In this document: piece after piece, positions 1 to 40,130 of the stretch
Layout: every line of letters begins with the position of its first letter
Position numbering within the stretch: position 1 is the stretch's first letter
Assembly: GCF_900109825.1 (NCBI RefSeq)
Contig: NZ_FOBL01000010.1
Location: 1 to 64,000 of the forward strand
Length of the DNA: 64,000 nucleotides
Direction of reading: 5' to 3'
DNA from: Alkalibacterium putridalgicola
GTDB lineage: Bacteria; Bacillota; Bacilli; Lactobacillales; Carnobacteriaceae_A
The notes under the pieces: model-generated
Databases searched by the model: none
What the model saw: the letters and a program-made list of their open reading frames with translations, nothing else
Told to the model about the DNA's origin: nothing
Translations under genes and position numbers: made by a program

Positions 1-153
1 TCACTAAACGGCTATTGCGACTACTTCCTGGAGAATTATAATATGAACTGGTCACTAAACGGCTATTGCGACCACTTCTTGAAGAATTACAGCATAAACT
101 GGTCACTAAACGGTTATTGCGACTACTTCTTGAAGAATTACAGCATGAACTGG
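1..153. repeat. 51-bp tandem repeat array, three copies, cut by window edge
   Basis: Three head-to-tail copies of a 51-bp unit lie at 1-51, 52-102 and 103-153; the array probably continues left of the window. The copies differ at eight positions, all transitions. Each contains CTATTGCGAC, a core shared with the 52-bp array near 38.2 kb. Because 51 is a multiple of three, plus-strand frame 1 stays open through all copies to a TAA at 187-189 and would encode a 17-residue repeat (S-L-N-G-Y-C-D-Y/H-F-L ... N-W). One minus-strand frame is also open, so coding is uncertain. It may be the 3' end of a repeat-protein gene or a non-coding minisatellite. Confidence 0.9.
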
Positions 154-195
154 TCACAATACCTTCAGAGAACACTTTACCTGGACTAAACTAGC

Positions 196-2957: not shown

Positions 2958-3223
2958 TATTCAGCCATTCCCTCATTTTTAATTGTTTCTTCGATTCCTG
3001 CGATGGCTTCTTTTTCGTCAGCTCCATCAGCTGTGATCGAAACTTCTGCACCTTTACCTACGCCTAAAGACATAACGCCCATGATAGATTTCAAGTTAAC
3101 AGACTTACCTTTATAATCTAATGTAATATCTGAGTTGAATTTGCTTGCCTGCTGTACTAACAACGTTGCGGGTCTAGCGTGGATCCCTGTGTCTGCAATA
3201 ATCGTGTATTCTCTTTTTTCCAT
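2957..3223 (-). CDS. ptsH: Phosphocarrier protein HPr
   Basis: An 88-residue HPr. His15 (in [10 protein letters not shown]) receives phosphate from Enzyme I, and Ser46 (in [12 protein letters not shown]) is the site that HPr kinase/phosphorylase modifies for carbon catabolite control in Firmicutes. The ATG at 3223 was chosen over an in-frame ATG at 3316 because it has AAAAGGAGC eight bases upstream and gives the conserved N-terminus MEKREYTI; the longer form would add 31 residues not found in HPr. First gene of the ptsHI operon. Confidence 0.97.
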
Positions 3224-3347
3224 TTGAACTGCTCCTTTTAAAAAAGTTTTTTTATTATGAAAAGAATAGAACCTCAGTCTGTTATGGATGTGTACTTTTT
3301 TTCCGTACTTTTCCATTAAACCGCCATTTTATTCTTTCTTCCTATAC

Positions 3348-3376
3348 AGATTACCACTTTTCTCCTTTACCTACAA
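3348..3376 (-). promoter_or_regulatory. Probable sigma-A promoter of ptsHI
   Basis: On the minus strand TTGTAG (3371-3376) and TAATCT (3348-3353) are separated by 17 bases, leaving a leader of roughly 115 bases before ptsH. It is close to, and diverges from, the clpE promoter region. Confidence 0.6.
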
Positions 3377-3406
3377 CTGTTTTTTCTCAACTCATATAAC
3401 TTATCC

Positions 3407-3435
3407 TTGAAAGTCAAAAATGGTCAATGTATAAT
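3407..3435 (+). promoter_or_regulatory. clpE promoter P1
   Basis: TTGAAA (3407-3412), a 17-base spacer and a perfect TATAAT (3430-3435). The first CtsR box occupies almost exactly the spacer, so repressor binding would block RNA polymerase. Confidence 0.8.
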
Positions 3436-3464
3436 AAATCTATCAAAGGTCAATATTGGTCAAG
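3412..3464 (+). promoter_or_regulatory. Two CtsR operator boxes upstream of clpE
   Basis: Two direct heptad repeats match the CtsR consensus RGTCAAA-N3-RGTCAAA: AGTCAAA-AAT-GGTCAAT (3412-3428) and GGTCAAT-ATT-GGTCAAG (3448-3464). A degenerate reverse-oriented element with two TTTGAAC half-sites lies at 3488-3506 by promoter P2. CtsR is the class III heat-shock repressor of clp genes in Firmicutes; ctsR itself is not in this window. Confidence 0.85.
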
Positions 3465-3493
3465 CTTTTTCGTGTGAACTCAAACCCTTTGAA

Positions 3494-3522
3494 CTGACCT
3501 TTGAACAGATAATACGTATAAT
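3494..3522 (+). promoter_or_regulatory. Possible clpE promoter P2
   Basis: CTGACC (3494-3499), a 17-base spacer and TATAAT (3517-3522). It would start transcription close to the ribosome-binding site (GAAAGGAAG). The -35 is weaker than that of P1. Confidence 0.5.
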
Positions 3523-3560
3523 AAAATTAGAACTTTATATAGAAAGGAAGTTTTCTTATC

Positions 3561-5822
3561 ATGATATGTCAACGCTGTATGGAGCGACCTGCAACAATTC
3601 ATTTAACCACAAGCGTCAATGGACGACGACGAGAAATTGACCTTTGTCAGAAATGTTATCGTGAAATAAAACAGCAAGAACAGCAAGGACGTTTGAATCA
3701 GGGAAACAGCCAGGATCCGTTTGGCTTCAATCAATTTGATGACCTCTTCCGTGCCCTGTCTCAGAATCAGAATCCAAATACAGAGAGACCCACTCCCCCT
3801 AACAGGCAGTTCTCCGGCAATAATCAGCAGCCTCCGATAAACGGCGGAGGACGTGGCGGTTTACTTGGTGAATATGGTGTGGACCTCACTCAAATGGCTA
3901 AGGACGGGAAGATAGACCCGGTGATCGGGCGTGACAAGGAAATCGAACGTGTCATTGAAATTTTGAACAGACGAACTAAAAATAATCCTGTTCTAACGGG
4001 TGAAGCCGGCGTGGGTAAAACTGCCATCGTCGAAGGTCTTGCGATGAAGATAGTCAATGATGAAGTGCCGCATAAACTGCAGGATAAAGAAGTTATCCGT
4101 CTCGATGTTGCCTCCCTTGTTCAAGGAACAGGAATCAGAGGTCAGTTTGAAGAGCGTATGCAACAGTTGATGAATGAATTGAAAGATAACGACAACATTA
4201 TCTTGTTCATCGATGAAGTGCATGAAATCGTCGGTGCCGGTTCTGCAGAAGGCAGCAGCATGGATGCCGGGAATATTTTAAAACCCGCTTTAGCCAGAGG
4301 CGAACTTCAAATGGTCGGTGCGACGACTTTAAACGAGTATAGAAAAATCGAAAAAGATCCCGCACTGGAACGCCGTTTACAACCTGTCAGAGTTAATGAA
4401 CCGACCATAGAAGAAACACTGACGATTTTAAAAGGTATCCAGAAACAGTATGAGGATTACCACCACGTTAAGTATTCAGATAAAGCGATCAAAAGTGCAG
4501 TAGAATTATCTCACCGTTATATCCAAGACCGTTTCCTGCCTGATAAGGCGATCGATCTGCTGGATGAATCCGGATCTAAAAAGAATCTGACGATTCAATC
4601 TGTTGATCCGAAATCACTGGAAGAAAAAATTGATGAAGCAGAAAAGCAGAAACAGGAATCCTTAGAAAAAGAAGATTATGAAAAGGCTGCTTTTTATCGT
4701 GATCAAGTCACAAAATACAAAGAAATGATCGAACAGCAGACTCCTCAGTCCGAACAGCCCGAAGTGACAGAACAGGATATTATAAATATCATCGAAATAA
4801 AAACAGGTATCCCTGTAGGTGAGTTAAAAGAAAAAGAACAGGCTCAGCTGAAAGATCTGGACAAAGCGCTCAGACACCATGTCATTGGTCAAGATGAGGC
4901 TGTTGACAAAGTAGCTAAAGCCATCCGCCGGAACCGTATTGGTCTCAGACAGAAAAACCGCCCGATCGGTTCATTTATGTTCGTGGGGCCTACTGGTGTC
5001 GGAAAAACAGAATTGGCAAAAACTCTCGCTCTTGAATTGTTTGGAAGCAAAGATGCTTATGTTCGGCTGGACATGAGCGAATATATGGAAAAACACAGCA
5101 CATCCAAACTGATCGGTTCGCCTCCAGGCTATGTTGGCTATGATGAAGCAGGACAGCTTACTGAAAAAGTCAGACGTAATCCATATAGTCTGATCCTGGT
5201 CGATGAAGTGGAAAAAGCTCATCCAGACGTCCTGCATATGTTCCTGCAGATCCTGGACGATGGACGCTTGACAGATGCTCAAGGGCGTACAGTCAACTTC
5301 AAAGAAACGATCATTATCATGACAAGCAATGCCGGAACGACCAATGTCGAATCAAGCGTAGGTTTTGGAGCTCAGATAAGCGGAGAACAGCATTCGATAA
5401 AAAATCGTCTTCAGGATTATTTCAGACCCGAACTGTTGAACCGCTTTGACGGAATCGTTGAATTCCATCCGCTCTCAAAAGAAAATCTGCTGGAAATCGT
5501 GGATCTGATGCTTGAAGATGTCAATGAAGCATTGAAGCAGCATGATATAACGGTACACGTCGATCAGTCAGCTAAAGAGAAACTTGTCGACTTAGGGTAT
5601 GATCCTAAGATGGGTGCACGTCCTTTAAGACGGGTTATAGAAGAACACATCGAAGATAAAATCGCTGAGTTTTATATCAACAATCCAGAACCAGGTAAAA
5701 TATCAGCAACAGTCGAAGATGATGCCATTGTGATCACTAAGAAATCAAAAGAACAGTCATCTAACGGCGAGTCGCAGAAAGCAAATGAAGAAACGAATAA
5801 AACTGACAGCACTGAACAGTAA
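3561..5822 (+). CDS. clpE: ATP-dependent Clp protease ATPase subunit ClpE
   Basis: A 753-residue HSP100 unfoldase that partners with ClpP to degrade misfolded proteins under heat or disulfide stress. The N-terminal zinc finger that defines ClpE is present (Cys3, Cys6, Cys29, Cys32), followed by a Gln/Asn-rich linker. Two AAA+ modules follow, with Walker A motifs GEAGVGKTA and [10 protein letters not shown], separated by a UVR-type coiled coil. The C-terminal tail is acidic and low-complexity. The ATG at 3561 follows GAAAGGAAG. The gene stands alone between its CtsR-controlled promoters and a bidirectional terminator. Confidence 0.97.
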
Positions 5823-33620: not shown

Positions 33621-34949
33621 TTAATTCACAGCTTCAGACTGACTCAAAATCCGTTCAAAAGCATGTTCGAATTTTTCGACATCTCCTGCCCCCATAAAAA
33701 TAACGACCTCATTTTTATGTTTTAAAAGTGGGGACATATCGTCTTCTGATATGATCTCTTTTCCTTTTTTTGTCTTTTCCAGCAGATCTTGGATAGTGAC
33801 TTCACCATTCTGCTCTCTAGCAGATGTAAAAATGTCACACAGATAAACGGCATCTGCCAGATCGAGGGCTTCTCCGAATTCATCCATCAAAGCGATCGTC
33901 CGGCTGAATGTATGTGGCTGAAAAACAGCGACGATTTCTTTATCCGGATATTTCTGATGGGCAGCATCCAGAGTCGCTTTGATTTCAGCAGGATGATGGG
34001 CGTAATCATCAATGATCACAGTGTCCATCACCGTTTTTTCAGTGAAACGTCTTTTGACTCCTGCAAAAGACATCAGACGTTCTTTAACTTTGTCCTGATC
34101 CAGACCGTCATAGTGGGCAAAGGCAATAACGGATAAGGCATTCTGGATATTATGCTTACCGAACGAAGGGATAGTGAAGCGTCCATAAAAGTCGCCGCGC
34201 ACGTAGACATCAAACGATGAACCGTGTGTCGACCGTTCAATATTTTTTGCCTGAAAATCATTATATTCATCAAAGCCATAATAAACGATAGGTACAGAAG
34301 CATGTAACTTCTGCAGTCTTTCATCATCCCCGCAGGCAAAGATCGCTTTTTTTATCTGCTGTGAAAACTGTAAAAAGGCGTCCTGAACATCATCGATACT
34401 CTTATAGTAATCTGGATGGTCAAAATCTATATTGGTGATGATTGCGTAATCTGTCGCATAAGCCAGGAAGTGTCTTCTGTATTCACAGGCTTCCAGAACA
34501 AAGTATTCCGCATCTTTCACACCACTGCCGGTTCCGTCGCCTATCAGGTAACTGGTATCTTTGATGCCGCTTAACACATGGGAAAGCAAACCGGTCGTAC
34601 TGGTTTTACCGTGTGCCCCTGTGACAGCGATACTGGTATACTGATTACTTAACTCGCCCAAGAAGTCATGGTAACGTTTGATGGGCAGGCCCAGTTCTTT
34701 TGCACGGACGATTTCTTCATGCGAATCAGGGAATGCATTACCGGCAATAATGGTCATCCCTTCTTTGATATTATCCTTATCAAAAACGAACATCGGAATA
34801 CCGGCTTCTTCTAGATTCTTTTGAGTGAAAAAATATTTCTTTACGTCAGATCCCTGTACGTCATAACCTTTATCATGCAGAATCAGTGCCAGCGCACTCA
34901 TACCTGACCCTTTAATTCCAACAAAATGGTATAGCGTATTTTGTATCAT
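33621..34949 (-). CDS. murC: UDP-N-acetylmuramate-L-alanine ligase
   Basis: A 442-residue Mur ligase adding L-alanine to UDP-MurNAc in peptidoglycan synthesis. N-terminal UDP-binding [14 protein letters not shown]-binding [14 protein letters not shown] near residue 108, and the C-terminal [13 protein letters not shown] motif are present. Own promoter likely upstream. Confidence 0.97.
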
Positions 34950-35089: not shown

Positions 35090-35659
35090 CTACCGATCCT
35101 TTTTGTTTTCAAATAATCCGGGAACGTTCCGTCTATTCCGGTTATTCCCGCCTTTTTCCTCTTCCATGATCGCTTCCAGCGTACGGTTTAGGCCATAGGC
35201 TTTTCTGGTCATCTTTTTCTTCTTATTCAACCCTGGCTTGCTAGTCCTATCCTGTTCTGGAGGCTGTTCAACTTTCGCTTTTTCTGTGCGCCACTCATTT
35301 TCAAGTTCTTCTGTCAGGAACTCTTCGTATACAATCAGATCACGGGTCTCTTTTTTCATTTCTTCTTTTAATCTCTCGTAATCCACAGCCGGTTTCGTCT
35401 CTTTTTTTGGTTTATGGTAGCCATAGATAGGTGAAGGCACTTTGCTCACTTCAAAAGGAGGAGTAATATAACCTCTACGTCTATCTTCCTCTTTATGACT
35501 CAAGTATTCTTTAAACCCTTTTTCTACGGTTTCTCTGCTTTTGACATGCTTAGGAAGTGAATAGGCGTCATCAAAAGATACCTGTTTCGTCTTTTTGTTT
35601 TTCTGATTTTTTTCTGCTTTACTGCTGGTTTCAAAAAAATCTGTATATTTGGAAGACAT
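35090..35659 (-). CDS. Short protein in the sftA position with SftA-like linker motif, no FtsK motor
   Basis: A 189-residue, highly charged protein, predicted disordered or helical. Residues around 67-77 read FEVSKVPSPIYGYHK, like the conserved VPSPIYGF-type segment that I recall in the N-terminal linker of SftA/YtpS DNA translocases. In other Bacilli the gene between ytpR and murC is sftA, of 700-950 residues; here only a short protein is encoded and no Walker motifs follow before murC. It may be a reduced SftA remnant or an independent protein. Later segments (TRKAYGLNRTLEAIMEEE) are not recognised. A good ribosome-binding site (GAGGGAAACG) precedes its ATG. Confidence 0.7.
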   Translation of the reverse strand: MSSKYTDFFETSSKAEKNQKNKKTKQVSFDDAYSLPKHVKSRETVEKGFKEYLSHKEEDRRRGYITPPFEVSKVPSPIYGYHKPKKETKPAVDYERLKEEMKKETRDLIVYEEFLTEELENEWRTEKAKVEQPPEQDRTSKPGLNKKKKMTRKAYGLNRTLEAIMEEEKGGNNRNRRNVPGLFENKKDR

Positions 35660-35693
35660 CGTTTCCCTCCTCTATCTTAATGGAATGACTGGT

Positions 35694-36299
35694 TTAGAGT
35701 TTGAATTCAGCACCCGTTTCACGGTCATCATCCAGAACCATGATTCCTTTTGACTCCTGGGGAAGGCCGAGTTCTCTTGCTGAACATACCATTCCTTCAC
35801 TCTTGACTCCTTTGAGTTCTCCAGGCCAGATGATCATTCCGTCGGGCATGACTGCGCCAACCTTTGCAACCACAACTTTCTGTCCTTCAGCAATATTGCC
35901 CGCACCGCAGACGATCTGAACGATTTTACCGTCATTGATTTCAGTTTGAGTGACATTTAAATGGTCAGAACCTTCTACCGGTTTACATGTTTGAACATGA
36001 CCAACGACAAAGTTTGGTCCCTCCTGCAGTTCAAGTGTCACATTGAAGCCAGCTTTTTCGATCAACTTATTCAGTTCAGCGACATCTTCTTCTGATAAAG
36101 AAACTGGCCCGTTCGTCAGATCATTTATAATAGACGAAGCATTAAATACGTTGTAACCAACGACTCTTCCAGTTTCTTTATTCGTGATTTCGACCAGATC
36201 GTCGACTCTTTTGAATTCCTGTACATCACTTTCACTTTTTTCAAGTAAAACCATCAATACATCTTTCAAACCGTTATTATTATACGTACTTACAAACAT
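35694..36299 (-). CDS. ytpR: YtpR family tRNA-binding domain protein
   Basis: A 201-residue protein with a C-terminal OB-fold tRNA-binding domain of the type in the PheRS beta subunit (VVGHVQTCKPVEGSDHLNVTQ, VCGAGNIAEGQKV, SEGMVCSARELGL). The N-terminal half is YtpR-specific. Exact function unknown. Lies between the M42 peptidase gene and the SftA-like gene, as in other Bacilli. Confidence 0.93.
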   Translation of the reverse strand: MFVSTYNNNGLKDVLMVLLEKSESDVQEFKRVDDLVEITNKETGRVVGYNVFNASSIINDLTNGPVSLSEEDVAELNKLIEKAGFNVTLELQEGPNFVVGHVQTCKPVEGSDHLNVTQTEINDGKIVQIVCGAGNIAEGQKVVVAKVGAVMPDGMIIWPGELKGVKSEGMVCSARELGLPQESKGIMVLDDDRETGAEFKL

Positions 36300-37416: not shown

Positions 37417-37575
37417 TTATCTGTTTCCTCTCACTAAACATAGTATTGTACCTATTCTTAATTATTATACACAAAAATCTGTTGGATTTTAAGCTTTCCT
37501 ATTCCTTTTCTATTACACTTCACTCACTTGTGTGATAAAATAGACCTAACCTATAATTTTAAAGGAGGAGTCGCT

Positions 37576-37929
37576 GTGTTTCAGTCAGAAAAAATGAAAG
37601 GGTCCCGTTATTCTTCGCAAGAATGGGCACTGCTTTCCCTCGTTCTTGTGTTGTCCTTTCTAATTGGTGCTCTATCATTCAGACAATACAGTAAGAAAAA
37701 AGCTTTAAAAGCCGATGATATCTTAAAAGATGTTAAAAAGGATTTCCTCGAAGAAGGCCCATTAGACGGATCCTGGATAGAACTGACAAAAGTACCGTGG
37801 AAAAAATTTGCGCACAAAACAGATGTTTACTATGGCGGGATATCCCGTTATGAAGAGAACAAACTTGTCCAGTATGAATTCATCGCTGATGCCTACACAG
37901 GCAGTATCATCGATATCTACCGTGTGTGA
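37576..37929 (+). CDS. Small membrane-anchored protein, PepSY-like/COG5584 type
   Basis: A 117-residue protein with one hydrophobic segment at about 18-35 (ALLSLVLVLSFLIGAL) and a small extracytoplasmic domain whose end (YEFIADAYTGSIIDIYRV) resembles a PepSY-like fold. The start is GTG at 37576, six bases after AAAGGAGGAG; the upstream in-frame extension to 37528 covers the promoter region and is unlikely. Lone plus-strand gene between the M42 gene and the repeat array. Function unknown. Confidence 0.75.
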   Translation: MFQSEKMKGSRYSSQEWALLSLVLVLSFLIGALSFRQYSKKKALKADDILKDVKKDFLEEGPLDGSWIELTKVPWKKFAHKTDVYYGGISRYEENKLVQYEFIADAYTGSIIDIYRV

Positions 37930-37979: not shown

Positions 37980-38153
37980 TCTGCATTTACTTATGTATAA
38001 TCGCTAGCATTTATTTTCAACCCTTCATAGAATGCTCTGCACCAACTCACTACAACGGATTTGGCCTATTTAAATAAAAAATGCCGTTTCCAGCACTATC
38101 TTCTATCCTACCCTTACTCAAATCCTATGGATATATCTTTCGAGATCTGTTGT

Positions 38154-38413
38154 GACAAGTTTTGTTGCCGCTCCTCACAAAAAGGTGTGCCTATTTCGCT
38201 TTTGCGACAAGTTTTGTTGCCGCTCCTCACAAAAAGGTGTGCCTATTTCGCTATTGCGACAAGTTTTATCGTCGCTACTCGTAAAAAGGTGTGCCTATTT
38301 CGCTATTGTAACAAGTTTTGTCGTCTCTACTCGTAAAAAGGTGTGCCTATCTCACTATTGTGACAAGTTTTGTCGCCGCTACTCGTAAAAAGGTGTGCCA
38401 ATGGCCTAGATCG
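38154..38413. repeat. 52-bp tandem repeat array, five copies
   Basis: Five units begin at 38154, 38206, 38258, 38310 and 38362, exactly 52 bases apart. Each begins near an inverted repeat GCGACAA-GTT-TTGTCGC (variably mutated, often by G-U compatible changes) followed by AAAAAGGTGTGCC. The unit is not a multiple of three, and the open frames crossing it are shadows. It shares GCTATTGCGAC with the 51-bp array at 1-153. The flanking 37980-38153 and 38414-38528 hold no gene that I can support. Confidence 0.92.
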
Positions 38414-39276: not shown

Positions 39277-40068
39277 TTATGTTTTTATACGATTTAAGAC
39301 TGTATTTAATTTAATCAAATCATTGTTCATTCTGATATAATCCTGTTTTTTATGATTATGTTTCAAGTCATTAAGCAGATTCAGCAGGCTATACCAGTAT
39401 ACTTTTTCTTTCGCATACCCTTCTGCAGCAAATTCGACTGATTCCAGCCAGGCATCCCATTTCTCTGGATGGATATACCGCTCCATAAGCTGACTGATAT
39501 CATGACAAGGATCCGAGATAACGACAGAATCCCAATCCACGAGATAGAGATGATTATCAGTGGAAAGAAGTAAATTCTTGTGCGAGATATCGCCATGACA
39601 GACGACTTTATTCTCGGTACTTGTTTCATCAGGTAGATTCTCTTTTAAATAAACGATGGCTTCTTTGATTAAAGGATGGATTCTGAGGTCTGGAGCTAAA
39701 TCGGCAAGCGATTGATTATAGAGATCAGTTGGATTTAAAACATTGCCCCCAAGTCGCATCAGCATGCGTTTTAAACTTTGGGATCCATGAACCTTGCGAA
39801 TAATATTGAATACACTCGTCATGTGCATTTCTTCTTTATGAAGCGTACGCCCGCTGCACCATTCCTGAGCAGTCAGTACATCTCCGTTTCCTATTCTCTT
39901 TGTCCAGACGAGTTTAGGTGATATACCTTCCAGCGATAAAGCTGCTAAAAATGGAGAAGAATTGCGCTTTAAAAATAACCGTTCTTCATTTCGCGTCCCC
40001 ATATATGCCTGACCTGTTTCTCCTCCGATAGGATGCAGTTGCCACCCCGATTCTCTCTCCAGCTCCAT
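39277..40068 (-). CDS. ytmP: Aminoglycoside phosphotransferase/choline kinase-like protein (YtmP-like)
   Basis: A 263-residue protein with the phosphotransferase active-site loop VCHGDISHKNLLL and metal-binding LVDWDSV. Substrate unknown. The ATG at 40068 was chosen; a GTG two codons upstream (40074) is also possible. Order dat-ytmP-trmB matches other Bacilli. Confidence 0.85.
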   Translation of the reverse strand: MELERESGWQLHPIGGETGQAYMGTRNEERLFLKRNSSPFLAALSLEGISPKLVWTKRIGNGDVLTAQEWCSGRTLHKEEMHMTSVFNIIRKVHGSQSLKRMLMRLGGNVLNPTDLYNQSLADLAPDLRIHPLIKEAIVYLKENLPDETSTENKVVCHGDISHKNLLLSTDNHLYLVDWDSVVISDPCHDISQLMERYIHPEKWDAWLESVEFAAEGYAKEKVYWYSLLNLLNDLKHNHKKQDYIRMNNDLIKLNTVLNRIKT

Positions 40069-40130
40069 ACTCACTCAATCCTTTTTTATCTCATTAGTCA
40101 AACAATGGTAAAGACATTGATGCACCTTCT

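Follow-up and report, generated by a model that had tools for sequence, protein, structure and literature searches.

Introduction

Bacillus subtilis and related species have a known DNA translocase, SftA (YtpS). Its gene lies directly upstream of murC, between ytpR and murC, and the protein consists of an N-terminal module with the motif PFxxxxVPSPIYG and no membrane segments, followed by an acidic linker and a motor of FtsK alpha, beta and gamma domains. In B. subtilis, SepF and FtsA help to keep SftA at the Z-ring, and in an ezrA mutant of this species overproduced SftA blocks division (PMC11790237, citing Saaki et al. 2022); SftA and SpoIIIE reportedly do not co-localize (PMC5357621).

In Streptococcus pneumoniae, the gene immediately 5' of murC encodes ZapJ (Spd_1350), with a mass of 23,844 Da and a pI of 9.11 (PMC8687745). 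In that study, ZapJ was pulled down with ZapA and contacted ZapA directly in a two-hybrid assay, it was found at midcell, its loss caused the same phenotypes as loss of zapA, and its authors called it confined to streptococci. The open PMC literature, to which our search was limited (subscription papers lay outside it), yielded no report of a motorless SftA or of a link between SftA and ZapJ. Here we describe a 189-aa protein, referred to as X, that is encoded in a 64,000-nucleotide stretch of Alkalibacterium putridalgicola DNA (the window; NZ_FOBL01000010.1, positions 1 to 64,000).

Results

Gene and protein

An earlier note on this DNA had claimed an intact frame with a good ribosome-binding site, a gene in the sftA position and a product with no FtsK ATPase, and all three claims held (Table 1). 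The frame is free of internal stops, and ytpR and murC flank it on the same strand. Because no Pfam family reached its cut-off and no NCBIfam family appeared at E ≤ 10 in searches with X, the protein lacks an FtsK motor. The sporulation inhibitor of replication, SirA, was the best Pfam match (E 0.016), but its 16.1 bits stayed below the cut-off of 26 and it appeared at E ≤ 1 in 2 of 12 members, and this identity was dropped. A solved-structure search with X gave no match at E ≤ 1. X has a computed pI of 9.46 and 0 transmembrane segments, and its C-terminal VPGLF may resemble the tail of FtsZ. AlphaFold2 modeling from 13 sequences (mean pLDDT 63.5, pTM 0.18) gave helices at residues 42-54, 94-101, 117-130 and 161-170 and otherwise loops; as modeled, X is likely a mostly extended, largely disordered chain that carries short conserved motifs.

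Table 1. Coordinates of X, its motifs, its neighbors and other features of the window.
Feature	Position	Strand	Remarks
X gene, motorless SftA N-module protein	35090..35659	-	ATG start, 189 codons, internal stops absent
Ribosome-binding site AGGAGGG	35665..35671	-	5 bases ahead of X ATG
ytpR, upstream of X	35694..36299	-	gap 34 bp; NCBIfam YtpR 194 bits, cut-off 100
murC, downstream of X	33621..34949	-	gap 140 bp; TIGR01082 434 bits, cut-off 335
Motif M0 MSSKYTDFFE, X N-terminus	35630..35659	-	replaces xYDGPSFF start seen in relatives
Motif M2 PPFEVSKVPSPIYGY, X residues 67-81	35417..35461	-	common to SftA N-termini
Motif M3 YERLKEEMKKETRDLIVYEEFLTE, X residues 94-117	35309..35380	-	common to family f2 SftA
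Motif M4 helix GLNRTLEAIMEEEKG, X residues 156-170	35150..35194	-	common to family f2 SftA
C-terminal VPGLF, X residues 179-183	35111..35125	-	
Tandem array	38150..38399		52-bp unit, 4.8 copies, 91% matches; between ORF 37528-37929 and trmB
Tandem array at window start	1..157		51-bp unit, 3.1 copies
Protein resembling cell cycle regulator CcrZ	39277..40074		E 9e-60, 202 bits, cut-off 400

Elsewhere in the window, ORFs inside the larger of the two tandem arrays look like repeat by-products, and the CcrZ-like protein is a candidate divergent CcrZ, which as such would lie near another division gene.

Similarity of X to SftA N-termini

Families of Lactobacillales are coded f1 to f9 below; f1 includes Alkalibacterium and Marinilactibacillus, and the taxon names of f2 to f9 are tentative and therefore used with "like". 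To compare X with SftA, HMMs were built from the N-termini of full-length SftA proteins, with no X sequences in the models, and were run against 4615 sequences, which comprised every ORF of 60 aa or longer from either strand of the loci compared and 50 shuffles per X. The f2 SftA model matched X with an E value of 5.4e-17 (60.2 bits), the best shuffled decoy among the matches listed scoring 18.6 bits. The model from all SftA N-termini gave 1.5e-14, and the one restricted to Bacillaceae/Paenibacillaceae SftA gave 1.5e-8 (32.6 bits; best decoy among the matches listed, 13.1 bits). A profile of X built from Alkalibacterium and Marinilactibacillus (189 positions) matched all seven f2 SftA proteins (7/7), its positions 7-186 aligning with residues 66-245 of a 943-aa f2 SftA that has FtsK alpha, beta and gamma domains, with FtsK_alpha beginning at residue 477. 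An Alkalibacterium-only profile missed the f1 genomes G012 and G017, where position and motifs revealed the gene. Plain regular expressions written for the motifs failed to pick up many members because of their strictness, so that profile results were used instead.

Profile-profile comparison of f1 X with f2 SftA gave 99.6% over 136 columns, with column-shuffled controls at or below 0.5%, and comparison with Bacillaceae and f7 SftA gave 95.3% over 35 columns around PSPIYG only. Across five sets of column-shuffled alignments with 100 trials, the maximum was 1.3%. Motif order is the same in X and SftA, and the module is basic in both (pI 9.8 for residues 1-250 of f2 SftA and 9.5 for X). The acidic linker of f2 SftA (residues 251-470, pI 4.2) is missing from X; in two f2 genes (L106 and L109) the linker between N-module and motor contains very long EP or EVLEPE repeats. 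These profile-level comparisons show X to be a homolog of the N-terminal module of SftA, a soluble DNA translocase. The earlier note had based this resemblance on the segment around PSPIYG, which proved to be part of a motif common to SftA N-termini; similarity to the SftA profiles extends beyond it to a near full-length alignment with f2 SftA, and a similarity confined to the motif, or an unrelated family matching over the whole length, was looked for and did not occur. Thus, X shares with SftA the module and the place between ytpR and murC but, unlike SftA, has neither acidic linker nor motor and therefore cannot pump DNA.

Motors left in the genome

All 48 candidates in the A. putridalgicola genome were scored, and one FtsK_SpoIIIE match was found at E ≤ 0.001. 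This 788-aa FtsK has FtsK alpha, beta and gamma domains and four hydrophobic windows within its first 175 residues, features by which the sole FtsK_SpoIIIE-type motor of the genome is of the membrane SpoIIIE/FtsK type. It is encoded in exactly one copy, away from the X locus, and unlike X it combines membrane segments with a motor; a check for a second full FtsK or SftA in the genome found none besides it. Among the 27 f1 genomes searched, each had one match below 1e-60, and further motor matches were weaker and mostly in frames of 330-530 aa, with one of 22.8 bits in an 829-aa frame. A quick-method tree of 54 motor rows, for which the program warned that long branches meet, had one branch (SH-aLRT 100) that separated 24 murC-locus motors from 30 SpoIIIE motors; in this tree the SftA motors are one clade, apart from the SpoIIIE motor clade.

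Conservation of X

X was present in all 12 genus genomes searched, and 32 of its positions are invariant among these members. Compared with its nearest relative, A. subtropicum, X had a dN/dS of 0.23 (dN 0.086, dS 0.37), other pairs being at or near synonymous saturation. X is under purifying selection and, in the same species pair, evolves faster than its neighbors ytpR (0.15), murC (0.03) and trmB (0.02).

The slot upstream of murC across Lactobacillales

The DNA upstream of murC was surveyed in 107 Lactobacillales genomes (60 + 28 + 19); in a further f1 genome, G020, no murC was obtained. The slot held a full SftA in 20 genomes (f2, 7/7; f7, 4/4; f9, 9/18, one of these split over two frames), a motorless ORF in 49 (f1, 14/14; f5, 23/23; f6, 1/1; f8, 8/8; f9, 3/18), a small ORF in 22 (all from the Streptococcaceae-like f4, 22/22), and neither in 16 (f3, 10/10 at murC; f9, 6/18). 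Among named Bacillaceae/Paenibacillaceae SftA loci, motifs and motor occurred together in 9/9, and murC followed in eight, the ninth having no following ORF of at least 150 aa in the DNA shown.

The motorless class does not rest on the same evidence in every family. The f8 ORFs were not separated from shuffled decoys by the SftA-only HMM, one f8 protein scoring just under a decoy; profile-profile comparison with f2 SftA gave 45.1% for f8 alone and 97.1% over 227 columns for f8 with f3. The 23 f5 ORFs were assigned by position and a family profile (98.2%) rather than by individual scores, several of them lacking M2 and M4, and the three f9 ORFs were assigned from a profile match of 84.4% in 35 columns. 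In f3, the f8 profile detected the module in 21 of the 22 genomes, with E values ranging from 3e-46 to 1.2e-9, and inspection of 11 module loci placed two directly upstream of murC and nine elsewhere. Thus, f3 keeps the module mostly away from murC, and linkage to murC is therefore not needed.

The six f9 loci without SftA and module at murC (L154, L155, L157, L158, L159 and L170) indicate that some lineages can do without the module; in L154, L157 and L158, ytpR lies at most 30 bp from murC. The split f9 case (L163 of genome G221, 3158-5580 in murC-oriented coordinates) has its SftA motor divided between a 741-aa and a 65-aa ORF just before murC, a possible step toward motor loss or a sequencing error.

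Direction and number of motor losses

A MurC tree of 63 rows was rooted on five Bacillaceae/Paenibacillaceae rows, taken from five of the nine named loci; the f1 row L095, with no murC ORF, was left out. The outgroup state was full SftA, and three changes between full and motorless were needed. On a quick tree with 21 full rows, a constraint placing the 27 motorless rows in a single clade was rejected at p-AU 2.9e-48. In a careful MurC tree, f1 fell outside a 95/92 branch holding f5, f8, f6, f3, f4 and f9, and f9 formed one clade at 100/95 that includes nine full SftA loci, so that motor loss in f1 was separate from the losses in f9 and in the f5/f8 block. These trees show more than one origin of the motorless state in the MurC phylogeny. 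Because full SftA is the outgroup state and the SftA motors are one clade, the changes read as repeated motor loss, probably at least three times and with the N-module kept, a count that is approximate given the weak backbone (83/67) and the use of a one-gene tree. One f1 row, L171 (G012, genus g2), had been coded empty in this tree, and its slot was later found to hold an f1-type module after ytpR. The MurC of this row is on a long branch beside f4 rows, apart from other f1.

Intermediates between the module family and ZapJ

In f4, the slot proteins of genus g12 (L252-L262) are 205 aa long with masses of 23,679-23,787 Da and pI values of 8.8-9.45, which fit ZapJ. In four basal f4 genera (g67, g69, g70 and g73) the slot is clearly occupied by modules of the f3/f8 type, the comparison of f8/f6/f3 X with basal f4 X giving 99.5%. 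The slot ORF of genus g68 gave 97.5% against the basal f4 set, and short ORFs in g65, g66, g71 and g72 share the N-terminal FPxxxDDExL...LLT stretch. With the whole protein, the ZapJ profile gave 28.7% against Lactococcus-like ORFs and 4.7% against basal f4, values below significance, with shuffles reaching up to 6.7%. With the first 90 residues of ZapJ, the comparison gave 92.6% (E 4.6e-7) against the pooled other f4 genera, 71.5% against the basal and g68 set without the Lactococcus-like ORFs, 40.6% against the Lactococcus-like set, and 6.6% against f8/f6/f3 with basal f4; shuffles reached the score in 0 of 60 trials in each.

X showed no direct profile similarity to ZapJ (3.8% for the f1 X profile against the ZapJ profile), and three streptococcal slot sequences gave 0.1-0.6% in profile comparison, with 0.1% against f1 X. 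The link emerged only after the basal f4 genera were added. The chain of intermediates and the exact position in 22/22 f4 loci make it likely that ZapJ is orthologous to the module family. ZapJ resembles X in being small, basic and motorless and in having its gene immediately 5' of murC, and intermediates occur in other Streptococcaceae-like genera. The two differ in the motifs kept: the chain to ZapJ depends on an FRFP-type motif, of which ZapJ retains a remnant and which X lacks, whereas X has the PSPIYG, LLFE and RSLxxIM motifs.

Discussion

The homology of X to the SftA N-module, the loss of the motor and the retention of the module are best read together, and we consider it probable that X serves as a Z-ring accessory or docking protein without a pump. 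In this model, the SftA module, freed of linker and motor, would work alone at the Z-ring. X would dock on early divisome proteins, with ZapA, SepF and FtsA as candidates (SepF, as well as EzrA, is encoded in the A. putridalgicola genome), and would help to hold the ring together, while SpoIIIE alone would clear the septum of DNA. By analogy with ZapJ, which would be the same gene as judged from its position and the intermediates, X may be found at midcell with similar partners and a similar effect on the ring; the ZapJ link makes targeting of X to the division site more likely. By way of ZapJ, X would also be likely to share with ZapB of Escherichia coli a role as a partner of ZapA.

X might instead act in trans as a targeting or loading subunit of the remaining SpoIIIE/FtsK motor. 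Such a role would suit a module that was once part of a translocase, in a genome with one FtsK left and a family with one strong match per genome, and FtsK is present in pneumococcal EzrA complexes (PMC8687745). However, SpoIIIE has its own membrane anchor, B. subtilis SftA and SpoIIIE are described as not co-localizing (PMC5357621), and our analysis found no motor contact or co-varying site, and we regard this role as unlikely. Less probable still is that X couples division to the supply of cell-wall precursors through MurC. Its position directly 5' of murC, repeated in 49 motorless and 20 SftA loci, is what such coupling would predict, but the gene is not beside murC in nine of the 11 f3 loci inspected.

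That X is a decaying, functionless remnant appears very unlikely and is contradicted by the purifying selection on X. The missing motor, the faster divergence of X than of its neighbors, and the f9 genera without module and motor could all be expected of decay, but not the presence in 12/12 genus genomes, the 32 invariant positions or the dN/dS of 0.23. Retention has also been repeated in other families, including 21 of 22 f3 genomes, mostly after the gene had left murC, so that the earlier note's view of a retained module rather than simple decay stands. Finally, a chance occupation of the sftA slot by a protein unrelated to SftA, to which low direct BLAST-level similarity outside f1 and f2 and the charged, low-complexity character of much of X might point, has almost no remaining likelihood and is refuted at the sequence-profile level by the SftA-only HMMs, the profile comparisons with shuffled controls and the shared motif order.

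Returning to X as a docking module without a pump, we somewhat favor a broader reading in which one old family of Z-ring accessory modules exists in Bacilli. SftA would be its motor-bearing form, the pump would have been cut off independently in most Lactobacillales families with the docking module kept, and ZapJ would be one descendant. Lineages that drop the translocase yet keep the N-module imply that the module has its own task at division. If the one-family reading is true, the ring task (contact with ZapA, SepF or FtsA) would predate the DNA pump of SftA and be the more needed of the two, and the N-module of B. subtilis SftA is predicted to contact ZapA. This reading also suggests where ZapJ, a protein described as limited to streptococci (PMC8687745), came from, and it would give a first function-bearing name to the unannotated gene upstream of murC across Lactobacillales.
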